A stretch of 64,000 nucleotides of DNA from a candidate division WOR-3 bacterium (GTDB lineage: Bacteria > Hydrothermota > Tepidihabitantia > SM23-42 > JAOAFX01). Positions 316 through 56,593 of this stretch are shown piece by piece. The notes under the pieces are model-generated. The model had not been told where the DNA came from. It was given only the letters and a program-made list of their open reading frames with translations, and ran no database searches. Position 1 is the first letter of the stretch; the number at the start of each line of letters is the position of its first letter. The position numbers and the translations under genes are program-made. Location of the stretch: positions 1-64,000 of the forward strand of contig JBDRVV010000003.1 in NCBI GenBank assembly GCA_039802005.1, written 5' to 3'.

Positions 316-2334
316 CTAATGCCCATCTGTTTTAAATCCCTTAATCATCTTTAGGAATTCCTGCTCATCAATTATCTTCACTCCGAGTTTCTTTGCCTTT
401 TCATACTTTGAACCGGGCTCAGTGCCGACAACAACATAGTCGGTATTTTTTGACACTGAACTTGAAGGATGACCACCGAGTTTCCGCACAATCGCCTGTG
501 CCTCTTCACGGGTCATTGAAGAAAGCTCACCGGTGAAGACGAATGTCTTATTCTTTAGTGGCCCTTCAGAGACAACCTTTTCAGTCTCAAATTTTAATCC
601 TGCCTTTTTCAAATGCTCAATGAGGCGCCGATTCTTGGGACTTTTAAAATAATTAATGATGCCCTCTGCAACGACTTCGCCTATTCCAGATATTGCAGTA
701 AGTCTTTCTATATCTGCATTCATAAGGTTATCAATATTCTTAAATTCATTGACCAACAAATTTGATGCATTTATACCTACATTCGGAATTCCAAGGGCAT
801 AAAGGACATTGACAAAATCTCTTTCCTTGCTCTTCTCAATAGCATTTATCAAATTCTGTGCAGACTTCTCCCCCATCCTTTCTAAATCTGCGATAGTCTT
901 CACATCAAGTTTATAAATATCATCAAAACTTTTTACAATACCGAGGTCAACAAGTTTATTCACCAGAACCCAGCCAAGCCCTTCTATATCCATTGCCTGC
1001 CTTGATGCAAAATGCAAAATCGCCGCCTTTATCTGTGCCGGGCAGGAAGAATTCACACACCTCCAGTCCGCCTCTCCTTCAAGCCGATATATCTTTTCTC
1101 CACAGACCGGACATTTATCCGGAAATTTAAAAACCTTTTCTTTCCCGGTTCTACGGTCCTTTACCACACCCACAACCTTGGGAATGACCTCACCACCCTT
1201 TTCAATAACCACATAATCACCAATCCTTATATCCTTTCTTTTTATTTCATCTTCGTTATGCAATGTCGCCCTTGAAATCGTTGTTCCTGAGAGTGGGACA
1301 GGTTCAAGTATCGCTACGGGTGTGACCCTTCCGGTCCTGCCAACCTGTAATTGTATATCCTTTAATTTTGTTATTGCCTGGCGCGCAGGATACTTGTATG
1401 CAATTGCCCAACGTGGGCTCTTTATTGTATAACCGAGTAATTCGCGGTCAGCAAAATTATCCACCTTTATAACCAGTCCATCTACTTCATATTCAAGATC
1501 ATCACGCTTATTCTCCCATTTCTTCATATATTTTATTACTTCACCAATATCATTGCAGAGTTCAATATGCGGAACCACCTTGAATCCAGCAGAGCCAAGT
1601 TTCTTTAAGGTTTCGTAATGAGAACTGTGGTGCGGACCGGGTTGGACCGGTATTGTGTGGATAAAAAGGTCAAGATTTCTCTTTGCTACTTCTTTGGGAT
1701 CAAGGAGTTTGAGTGTGCCGGCAGTTGCATTACGGGGATTGGCAAAGATTGGCTCACCCTGTTCTTCTCTTTCTTTATTTATCTTCTCAAAATTCTTTTT
1801 TGAAAGATATACCTCACCACGAACTTCTATGTTCTTCAATTCATTGTCATCGGTCATTAGTTCAAGAGGCACAGATTTTATTGTCTTTATATTCTGTGTG
1901 ATATCATCACCTTTTATCCCATCTCCCCTTGTAGCACCGAGTATAAGTTTACCATTTTTGTAATGGAGTGCGACTGCGACACCATCTATCTTTAGTGTTA
2001 CTTCGTATTTTACCTGTCTGCCCAGACCTTTTTTTACTCGTTTATCAAATTCAAGTAATTCTTCTTCTGAATAGGTATTATCAAGGCTGAGCATCTTGAT
2101 TTTGTGTTCAACGGTTTTGAATTCTTTTAATGGTTCTCCACCAACACGCTGGGTGGGTGAATCCGGGGTTATGAGTTCAGGAAATTTTTTTTCAAGTTCT
2201 ACAAGTCTTTTGTATAACTGATCGTATTCATAATCTGAAATGACTGGCTGGTTTAATACATAATAGCGATAGTTGTGGTAATTTATCTCTTTACGAAGTT
2301 TTTCTATCTCCTTTTTTGCATCCTCAAGTTTCAT
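316..2334 (-). CDS. ligA: NAD-dependent DNA ligase LigA
   Basis: Seals nicks in duplex DNA with NAD+ during replication and repair. The 672-residue product has the full family length. The adenylation motif KIDGV lies near residue 115. It is followed by the OB fold, a four-cysteine zinc finger (CPVCG ... CVNSSCP), helix-hairpin-helix repeats around residues 440-570 and a C-terminal BRCT domain from about 590. The ATG start is supported by a promoter ending 6 nt before it (TTGACA-16 nt-TATAAT), implying a leaderless transcript; no Shine-Dalgarno sequence is present. It is a single-gene unit between two intergenic repeats. Confidence 0.97.
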
Positions 2335-2340
2335 TGAGAT

Positions 2341-2368
2341 ATTATAAGGAATTTTTTAGAGGTGTCAA
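2341..2368 (-). promoter_or_regulatory. ligA promoter, leaderless type
   Basis: On the minus strand TTGACA (2368-2363), a 16-nt spacer and TATAAT (2346-2341) end 6 nt before the ligA ATG. The expected +1 is therefore the A of the start codon. Confidence 0.85.
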
Positions 2369-2684
2369 GAACGGCATTTCGGATTTCGGATTGCGAAAAC
2401 GACATTTCGGATTTCGGATTGCGAATTTCGGAAAATTAAGATGCAGGAGCGCTGCGCTTGCGAAAATGACATTGCGAATTAAACGAATGAGATTGCTTCG
2501 CCCCTACGGGGCTCGCAATAACAATATACTCAAACCAATAACCACCAGTAGGCGCAGGCTTTAGCCTGCGGATAAATATGTCTAAATCTCAAAGGATTTC
2601 GCACCCTAAAGGGTGCGGCTACAATTTTTAAACACATAACAATGCCCGTTTGGGAACGACGCATCAGCAAGCTGATGCACTCCA
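2369..2684. repeat. Intergenic cluster of small palindromes
   Basis: No gene is supported. Imperfect direct repeats of a 'ggatttcggattgcgaa' type lie at about 2378-2432. Hairpins follow at 2493-2519, 2553-2570 (8-bp stem, TT loop), 2600-2617 (8-bp stem, AA loop) and 2661-2678 (8-bp stem, AA loop). The last three belong to the palindrome family also found at 19762, 19793, 44996, 47858, 47961, 48002 and 59905. Confidence 0.75.
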
Positions 2685-3060
2685 ATTCCCCGTTCGACCG
2701 GTGCTCCGATACTCTGTCCAACCCTTTTTACCCCTCTTTGCCCTTCTTCTTCCCTTCTTCACCCTTATTTAATTCGGCTATCGTTGTACGGTATGGTATT
2801 GGGTTTAGGATTGGAAATGAGTTAGGATTTGGTTTAAAGGTTTTGTTTACATTAACAATTTCCCCAAACCTATAGACAAAACCCAATCCCGTTTCCCAAC
2901 CCAAACCTTTAATCGGCTAAAAGACTTATTAATCCCTACTATTTATTTTCTTGTCATTCTAATCCCCCTATTTCCCCCTTTAAAAAGGGGGAATTAAAGG
3001 AGGACTTAAAAAGGGGAATTAAGGGATGGATTAAAATAGGGGGACTAAGGGGGATATAAT
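2685..3060. repeat. Composite intergenic repeat, copy B
   Basis: The first 108 bp repeat positions 1-108. The copy is then interrupted by about 125 bp with fold-back potential (arms attgggttt at 2798-2806 and aaacccaat at 2879-2887). It resumes at about 2912 with the segment also seen after position 145, ending in the C-run/G-run palindrome and degenerate 26-bp units. From 3061 to 3224 there are only short degenerate repeats (cgcttcgctcgcagg type) and a fragment, near 3161-3176, resembling the inverted central block of copy A. Confidence 0.7.
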
Positions 3061-55327: not shown

Positions 55328-55333
55328 TAAATA

Positions 55334-55361
55334 TTGACATTGTCATTTTTCTGACTAAACT
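55334..55361 (+). promoter_or_regulatory. pgsB promoter, leaderless type
   Basis: TTGACA (55334-55339), 16 nt, TAAACT (55356-55361), 5 nt, GTG at 55367. Confidence 0.75.
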
Positions 55362-55366
55362 TAAGT

Positions 55367-56593
55367 GTGGTTTTCGATTACGGTATATTTCTTTTATTTT
55401 CCCTTTTGATTCTATTTATTGTAATCGGCAGAATTGAATGGGTAAATCATACCCGGAACATAAATGCCATTCCTTTGCGCATTGTCGTCAACGGGACAAG
55501 AGGAAAATCCACAGTAACAAGACTGCTCGGTGCGGCATTAAAGGCAGGAGGTTATAAGACCCTTGCCAAAACAACAGGGACAAAACCGAGGATTGTGATT
55601 GACAACAAAGTTGAAAAACCAGTAATAAGACCGGGTAGAGCCAATATACACGAACAACTATCCATAACGAGAAAAGCAGTCCAGGAAAAAGTAGATGCCA
55701 TTGTTTTTGAAAATATGTCTTTAAGACCTGACCTGCAATGGGTTGAAGAAAGTAAGATAATATCCCCTCAGATCGTGGTGATCACAAATGTGCGGGCTGA
55801 CCATCTTGAAGTAATGGGTCCCACCTTAGAGGACATTGCAAAAAATTTTATAAATGCAGTACCACAAAAAGCAAAGGTGTTCACCGGTGAAAAAGTTTTA
55901 TTTCCCTTATTAGAGAAACTGGCTAAAAAACGCGGACTTGAGATTTATCTTAGTAACGAGAATGAGGTTACAGATGAAGACTTGCATCCTTTTCCTTATT
56001 TTGAACATCGCGAAAATATAGCGTTGGTTTTAAATGTGTGTAGCCACTTAGGAATTAAAAAAGAAAAAGCCCTTGCTGAAATGTATAATTATATCCCGGA
56101 TTCTGGTGTATTAAAAAAATATGAACTAAATATCGGGGGCAAAAATATTTTGCTTTATAATGCCCTTGCTGCAAATGACCCGGACTCTACTTATTTTATA
56201 TATGAAAGAATTAATAAACCCGAAAAAAATTTTTATATTCTTGCCAATTGCCGGGCAGACCGTATTGACCGTTCGGTCCAATTGGGTATACTTATCAGCA
56301 CAAAGATTAAGGCTGACTATTATTTTTTAACCGGTGGTGAGACCCGTATTTTATATCGCTCGGCAATAAAAAATGGTATGGACAGAGAAAAGTTAATTGA
56401 CCTAGGCAATAGAGATGTTGAATCGGTTTATGAGAAAGTAAGCGAAATTATCAATGATAACGGAGTGATACTTGCGATTGGGAATATCGTTGGATATGGT
56501 GAAAGATTGATTGCGCACTTTGTTCAAAAAAGTAATCCGCGGCATTCCGTGTTGCCATCCACGCCCTCCCGCGGAATTGCGGAGCAGAAATGA
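55367..56593 (+). CDS. pgsB: Poly-gamma-glutamate synthase PgsB/CapB
   Basis: 408 residues. One N-terminal membrane segment (about 5-22), then a Mur-ligase-like ATP-dependent amide ligase: P-loop VNGTRGKSTVTRLLG near 42, KTTGTKPRIV, NVRADHLEVMGPTLEDIA near 140, and ANCRADRIDRSVQ near 285. Polymerises glutamate through gamma-carboxyl groups. GTG start at the predicted +1. ATGA overlap with pgsC. Confidence 0.95.
   Translation: MVFDYGIFLLFSLLILFIVIGRIEWVNHTRNINAIPLRIVVNGTRGKSTVTRLLGAALKAGGYKTLAKTTGTKPRIVIDNKVEKPVIRPGRANIHEQLSITRKAVQEKVDAIVFENMSLRPDLQWVEESKIISPQIVVITNVRADHLEVMGPTLEDIAKNFINAVPQKAKVFTGEKVLFPLLEKLAKKRGLEIYLSNENEVTDEDLHPFPYFEHRENIALVLNVCSHLGIKKEKALAEMYNYIPDSGVLKKYELNIGGKNILLYNALAANDPDSTYFIYERINKPEKNFYILANCRADRIDRSVQLGILISTKIKADYYFLTGGETRILYRSAIKNGMDREKLIDLGNRDVESVYEKVSEIINDNGVILAIGNIVGYGERLIAHFVQKSNPRHSVLPSTPSRGIAEQK

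Follow-up and report, generated by a model that had tools for sequence, protein, structure and literature searches.

Leaderless or nearly leaderless translation initiation, set by the position of the promoter, is a well supported prediction for a candidate division WOR-3 bacterium (phylum now entered as Caldifarciminota in the NCBI taxonomy), of which we analysed a stretch of 64,000 nucleotides (nt), here called the window (contig JBDRVV010000003.1 of assembly GCA_039802005.1). An initial annotation of the window had proposed that nine transcription units carry TTGACW, a 16-nt spacer and a TATAAT-like box only 5-9 nt before the start codon, and no Shine-Dalgarno (SD) site. Motif, spacer and gap were reproduced exactly for all nine, and none has even a 4-nt SD core (0/9). 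The housekeeping RNA polymerase of this WOR-3 lineage would recognise TTGACW-N16-TATAAT and initiate transcription some 6-9 nt downstream of the -10 box. At about two fifths of the promoters the AUG or GUG start codon would then lie at the RNA start or at most ~4 nt from it, yielding an mRNA that is leaderless or almost so. Such mRNAs would be translated without SD pairing, presumably via 70S ribosomes binding the 5'-terminal AUG or GUG, while genes inside operons, and first genes with a promoter at least ~15 nt from the start, would use SD pairing to a normal anti-SD. The DNA itself shows the promoters with their spacing, the start codons, the lack of an SD, where coding begins and what relatives conserve; where the RNA really begins and how the ribosome initiates are inferred. 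We give this explanation as a whole a probability of roughly 0.92.

The assembly is metagenome-derived and comprises 2,544,038 bases in 62 contigs; promoters and genes were analysed in detail on 843 kb of it, and exact patterns were counted on the entire genome. Its promoters follow TTGACW-N16-TATAAT and hardly vary in spacer length: exact TTGACW matches have 16 nt in 118 cases, 17 nt in 9 and each other length in 0-4. TTGACN-N15-18-TATAAT occurs 388 times in the genome versus 19 times when the pattern is read backwards, and the promoter scan returned 274 matches versus 12 on reversed DNA. We then defined the gap as the number of nt from the -10 box to the first in-frame start of the gene, for the 263 promoters upstream of a gene. 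A gap of 5-9 was found in 114 of them (43%), compared with 3.0% for displaced copies of the same promoters (binomial p 6e-100). The distance histogram, on which the initial annotation had let its proposal stand or fall, therefore has a peak at 5-9 nt (46, 29, 14, 18 and 7 promoters at gaps 5, 6, 7, 8 and 9), against just 2 promoters at gap 4 and between 1 and 5 at each of gaps 10-14. Its left edge falls where the RNA should begin; a start codon further left would escape transcription. The -10 box thus stands where it does in leaderless genes (~10-12 nt upstream of the start codon). Moreover, the base preceding the start is C or T in 42 of the 46 gap-5 genes, forming a Y(-1)R(+1) initiator. The same pipeline gave 102/251 for the window genome versus 8/62 (13%) and 1/27 (4%) for two clostridial controls (Clostridia and Oscillospiraceae, respectively). 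A strict promoter test assigns the leaderless arrangement to 121 of the 766 called genes (16%). This fraction is probably an underestimate, since further promoters were met in which a start at gap 4-9 opens a long frame whose beginning the coding score had placed downstream. As to the promoter itself, the base immediately 5' of TTGAC is T in only 3% and A or C in 85% of the promoters of this genome.

SD usage follows the same distances. The SD core is found in 0/98 genes at gaps 5-9, 1/11 at gaps 10-14 and 25/35 at gaps 15-25, and an SD of 5 nt or more in none of the 121 leaderless-class genes. These start with ATG (104), GTG (15) or TTG (2), whereas TTG opens 42 of 418 SD-led genes (p 0.002). 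With 418 of 764 genes classed as SD-led, this is not the general SD absence of Bacteroidota-type genomes. The proposal that two initiation modes are separated by gene position also holds: the leaderless arrangement occurs in 62 of 140 first genes that are transcribed divergently, compared with 1 of 326 genes lying at most 20 nt behind a same-strand gene. To some extent leaderless cases should be scarce inside operons, as internal genes seldom own a promoter; the independent part of the rule is that starts near a promoter have no SD and internal starts have one. Separation by operon position is already given as a general rule for leaderless genes by Zheng (2011; PMC3160421).

Alternatively, the short distance between box and start could be a by-product of genome compaction, the true RNA start lying further upstream at another promoter and initiation without SD depending on S1 or on structure. 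The genome does encode bS1, and 58 candidates sit more than 20 nt behind a same-strand gene, where read-through RNA is possible. Nevertheless, compaction predicts smooth distances, and the observed ones rise abruptly at gap 5 and dip at 10-14, with the YR step at the start; two discrete gap/SD modes fit the distance data and a smooth compaction effect does not. Neither would compaction predict the avoidance of TTG, and we consider it highly improbable. Equally slim, and largely refuted, is the chance that these are ordinary leadered genes with an SD-led true start downstream and an accidental in-frame codon near the promoter: although a further in-frame start with an SD occurs within 120 nt in 7 of the 121 candidates, such sites are commoner in SD-led genes (33/271), the coding score per codon jumps precisely where the proposed frame begins (-1.10 over the 15 nt upstream, +0.26 over the first five codons, much as for SD-led genes), the next in-frame start of ligA is 240 nt downstream, family profiles align from residue 1-9 of the proteins (residue 1 in RibB, residue 4 in MutL), and relatives share the start codon, some with an SD there.

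Some points weigh against leaderless initiation as we describe it. The RNA starts are placed by promoter position, and at gaps 7-9 a leader of 1-4 nt is indistinguishable from none. The genes come from a simple home-made caller, with the leaderless class chosen via the promoter score. Additionally, distant orthologues are often without the leaderless arrangement, and a 16S gene was not found in the window's own metagenome assembly.

The anti-SD CACCTCCTTT is intact in a same-genus 16S, which ends in GGATCACCTCCTTT. bS1 is present in the window genome and seven relatives, and bS21 in 130 of 147 WOR-3 genomes, the window genome included. We therefore rejected the idea that leaderless use arose through a loss of bS21, the anti-SD or bS1. 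Leaderless use coexists here with a complete SD system, and so need not accompany the loss of these components. For comparison, bS21 has no match in C. glutamicum, Thermus and Deinobacterium.

How far does the pattern extend? We measured its spread as the number of promoters followed by ATG at gap 5-8 against that at gap 28-31. The counts are 145:24 for the window genome and 145:27, 130:38 and 135:25 for genomes G069, G067 and G071. Other families of the class have 44-69 versus 6-17 in six of the seven sampled, and 23:4 in the seventh (f8); family f10 has 11-18 versus 2-4. Other classes vary from 47:11 (G135) to 10:13 (G046), and low motif counts make several families uninformative. Overall, the window's order shows the pattern most strongly, and the majority of the families sampled within the class have it as well. 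Orthologues of the window genes keep the leaderless arrangement in 6/7 cases within the genus, 5/8 within the family and 5/10 within the order; mutL of the order member G071, for instance, has ATG at the same position with gap 5. They begin at the same codon as the window genes, and some from distant families carry an SD there: in such families the start codon of ligA and of another gene is unchanged, and comes with AAGGAGG or AGGAGG. The ligA genes of L022 and L037 illustrate this, with AAGGAGG at the kept start codon. In L022 an upstream gene ends 12 nt before ligA, and in the same-genus L021 ligA is leaderless. In both L022 and L037, then, the orthologous start codon stayed constant and initiation switched from leaderless to strong SD. 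Such cases make the evolution of initiation mode testable.

Food for further thought is the leader of rpsH, which the initial annotation had listed among first genes with longer leaders and an SD. This description stood for sucC, for the S8 protease (19885-22254) and, by reading of the sequence, for an rpmJ-like frame (LKVKSSIKK...) downstream of the promoter at 36557; rpsH is not a plain SD-led leadered gene. An ATG near the predicted RNA 5' end opens a short open reading frame (ORF) that contains the SD of rpsH and overlaps its start. We compared this leader in 25 species of the order, from 12 genera (L159-L183 among our loci). The 16-nt spacer and the 5'-terminal ATG at gap 8 occur in 25/25 species, and the short frame reaches the rpsH start region in 24/25, versus 8.7 expected when the leader is shuffled (by genus 11/12 versus 3.5, p 3e-6). 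Among the first 20 relatives, 17 of 18 scored leaders share one frame relative to rpsH, with lengths of 34, 37, 46, 49, 58 and 61 nt; most length changes are multiples of 3. Most of the short ORFs of the order end 14 nt inside rpsH, not at TAATG. At the sequence level, the layout of a leaderless bicistronic mRNA (5'-terminal AUG, fore-cistron with an SD, stop near the second start) is thus found in 24/25 species, and we read the short ORF as a leaderless fore-cistron coupling to SD-led rpsH. The sequence of the peptide is not conserved; therefore it seems to be the act of translating the short ORF, rather than its product, that matters.

The conserved TCTATG of this leader might instead be a structured or protein-binding RNA element that is not translated. 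The first bases after the promoter are indeed better conserved than the remaining leader. Nonetheless, the leader gave no consensus structure (RNAalifold energy 0) and no Rfam match, and an RNA element does not account for the open frame in 24/25 species and 11/12 genera or for length changes mostly in threes; we regard it as unlikely. In the 25 genomes sampled outside the order, rpsH lies behind a sequence ending like S14 (rpsN), almost always at 20 nt or less, and no promoter was found ahead of it. In the window genome rpsN lies on the same contig ~46 kb from rpsH (G000:C3:88337-88489, + strand), and the two genes are likewise far apart in the one-contig relative G076. We lean towards the view that WOR-3 leaderless initiation also feeds ribosomes into an SD-led operon: the spc operon would have been split in one order, leaving rpsH without upstream rpsN, and a promoter, a 5'-terminal AUG and an overlapping short fore-cistron, kept across 12 genera, would have replaced the upstream gene. 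Taken together, leaders of at least 35 nt in this genome have a 5'-terminal ATG or GTG in 19 cases versus 8.7 (p 0.002), a moderate excess in which some promoters lie within coding DNA. Another candidate 5'-terminal short ORF, at a radical-SAM gene (L001), was rejected, its promoter-like site being inside an overlapping upstream gene. In leaders of 17-18 nt at C3 (+) 115904 and C5 (+) 6230 (0-based promoter starts), a 5'-terminal ORF of four codons ends in a TGA that overlaps the following gene's ATG (ATGA).

Abundant leaderless genes are known from Actinobacteria, Deinococcus-Thermus and other groups (PMC3160421, PMC12340547, PMC9581028), in line with the initial annotation's remark on Actinobacteria and Deinococcus. 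According to the StartLink paper (PMC9581028), leaderless transcription is predicted for 21.6% of bacterial species, where it concerns as many as 40% of transcripts. The WOR-3 phylum is not named in the excerpts of these three papers, and within open-licence papers (subscription papers and preprints being outside the search) we found none pairing WOR-3 or Stahlbacteria with 'leaderless', in agreement with the annotation's remark on this lineage. What we describe is thus well supported as a predicted system of a known kind in a lineage for which the open-licence literature gave no report. It resembles the 'TA-led' genes (Zheng 2011, PMC3160421; Zhong 2025, PMC12340547; PMC9581028) in having a -10 box ~11-12 nt upstream, no SD, promoter-proximal genes only and ATG or GTG starts, and differs from them in its strong -35 box, near-rigid 16-nt spacer and AT-rich genome. 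In mycobacteria a 5'-terminal ATG or GTG is sufficient, and TTG does not work (Shell 2015, PMC4633059); the preference for ATG and GTG over TTG and the short ORFs at transcript 5' ends are shared with WOR-3. However, the mycobacterial case was shown by RNA-seq, ribosome profiling and reporters, whereas that of WOR-3 is predicted from sequence. The rpsH leader is similar to an engineered leaderless bicistronic design for C. glutamicum (PMC10367133), with a leaderless promoter, a short first cistron that includes the second one's SD and a stop at or near the second start. That design is synthetic and tested; the rpsH leader is natural, order-wide and read from the DNA only, and would be a natural example of an arrangement so far described from engineering. 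More broadly, our results would add an uncultured phylum, one that has a full SD system as well as bS1 and bS21, to the groups in which leaderless expression is abundant. They also offer a start-calling rule for WOR-3 assemblies, in which TTGACW-N16-TATAAT 5-9 nt upstream marks an AUG or GUG start.

The features of the window are collected in Table 1. The names ligA, mutL, lepB, ribBA, pgsB, GGDEF and FAD oxidoreductase agree with NCBIfam/Pfam. The protein named hdrC is HdrC-like with 4Fe-4S character, at scores under the family cut-offs. For the 'Lrp-like' protein the N-terminal winged helix-turn-helix (HTH) stood and nothing beyond it.

Table 1. Promoters and predicted gene starts in the window (gap, nt from the -10 box to the start codon)
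Feature	Position	Strand	Details
ligA promoter	2341..2368	-	TTGACA-N16-TATAAT; ATG at 2334, gap 6, no SD; kept in same genus (L021)
ligA, NAD-dependent DNA ligase, leaderless start	316..2334	-	NF005932, 892 bits
mutL promoter	7249..7276	-	TTGACT-N16-TAAAAT; GTG at 7243, gap 5
mutL, leaderless GTG start	5615..7243	-	TIGR00585, 447 bits; profile position 1 at residue 4
GGDEF gene promoter	10913..10940	+	TTGACA-N16-TACCAT; ATG at 10949, gap 8; weakest -10 box
GGDEF-AAA-TPR protein, leaderless or nearly so	10949..14128	+	PF00990 from residue 7
sucC promoter (contrast case)	14859..14886	+	longer leader, AAGGAGG ahead of TTG at 14911
lepB promoter	19676..19703	-	TTGACT-N16-TATAAT; ATG at 19667, gap 8
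lepB, signal peptidase I, leaderless or nearly so	18969..19667	-	TIGR02227
Winged-HTH gene promoter	26996..27023	-	TTGACT-N16-TATAAT; GTG at 26990, gap 5
Winged-HTH protein ('Lrp-like'), leaderless GTG start	26088..26990	-	HTH_24 E 4e-5; AsnC-type HTH 0.025
hdrC promoter	30954..30981	-	TTGACA-N16-TATAAT; ATG at 30945, gap 8
hdrC-like 4Fe-4S protein	30550..30945	-	family matches below cut-offs
FAD oxidoreductase promoter	32121..32148	-	TTGACT-N16-TATAAT; ATG at 32111, gap 9
FAD-dependent oxidoreductase	30978..32111	-	PF01266 from residue 6
rpsH unit promoter	42015..42042	-	TTGACT-N16-TATAAT; spacer 16 in 25/25 species of order
5'-terminal short ORF, 22 codons	41938..42006	-	ATG at gap 8; contains rpsH SD; ends 5 nt inside rpsH
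rpsH, GTG start, SD-led	41553..41945	-	
tRNA-Val promoter	44721..44748	-	TTGACA-N16-TATAAT
tRNA-Met promoter	45116..45143	+	TTGACA-N16-TATAAT
ribBA promoter	48108..48135	+	TTGACT-N16-TAAAAT; ATG at 48142, gap 6
ribBA, leaderless start	48142..49374	+	TIGR00506 1-198 on residues 1-204; profile position 1 at residue 1
pgsB promoter	55334..55361	+	TTGACA-N16-TAAACT; GTG at 55367, gap 5
pgsB, leaderless GTG start	55367..56593	+	TIGR04012

Both tRNA promoters share the 16-nt spacing, as had been noticed at the outset. At 44721-44779 two promoters stand back to back; the one on the + strand (44752) points towards tRNA-Met, and the 485 nt that follow it are free of protein genes. A plasmid search with the ribBA start region returned only distant ribBA coding matches, and the top match of the ligA protein (93% identity) is in the WOR-3 metagenome assembly SKW300. 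Finally, the S8 protease more likely starts at the ATG at 19900 (after AAAGGAGG) than at the TTG at 19885. It carries a Por_Secre_tail domain (PF18962), which suggests type IX-like secretion in WOR-3.

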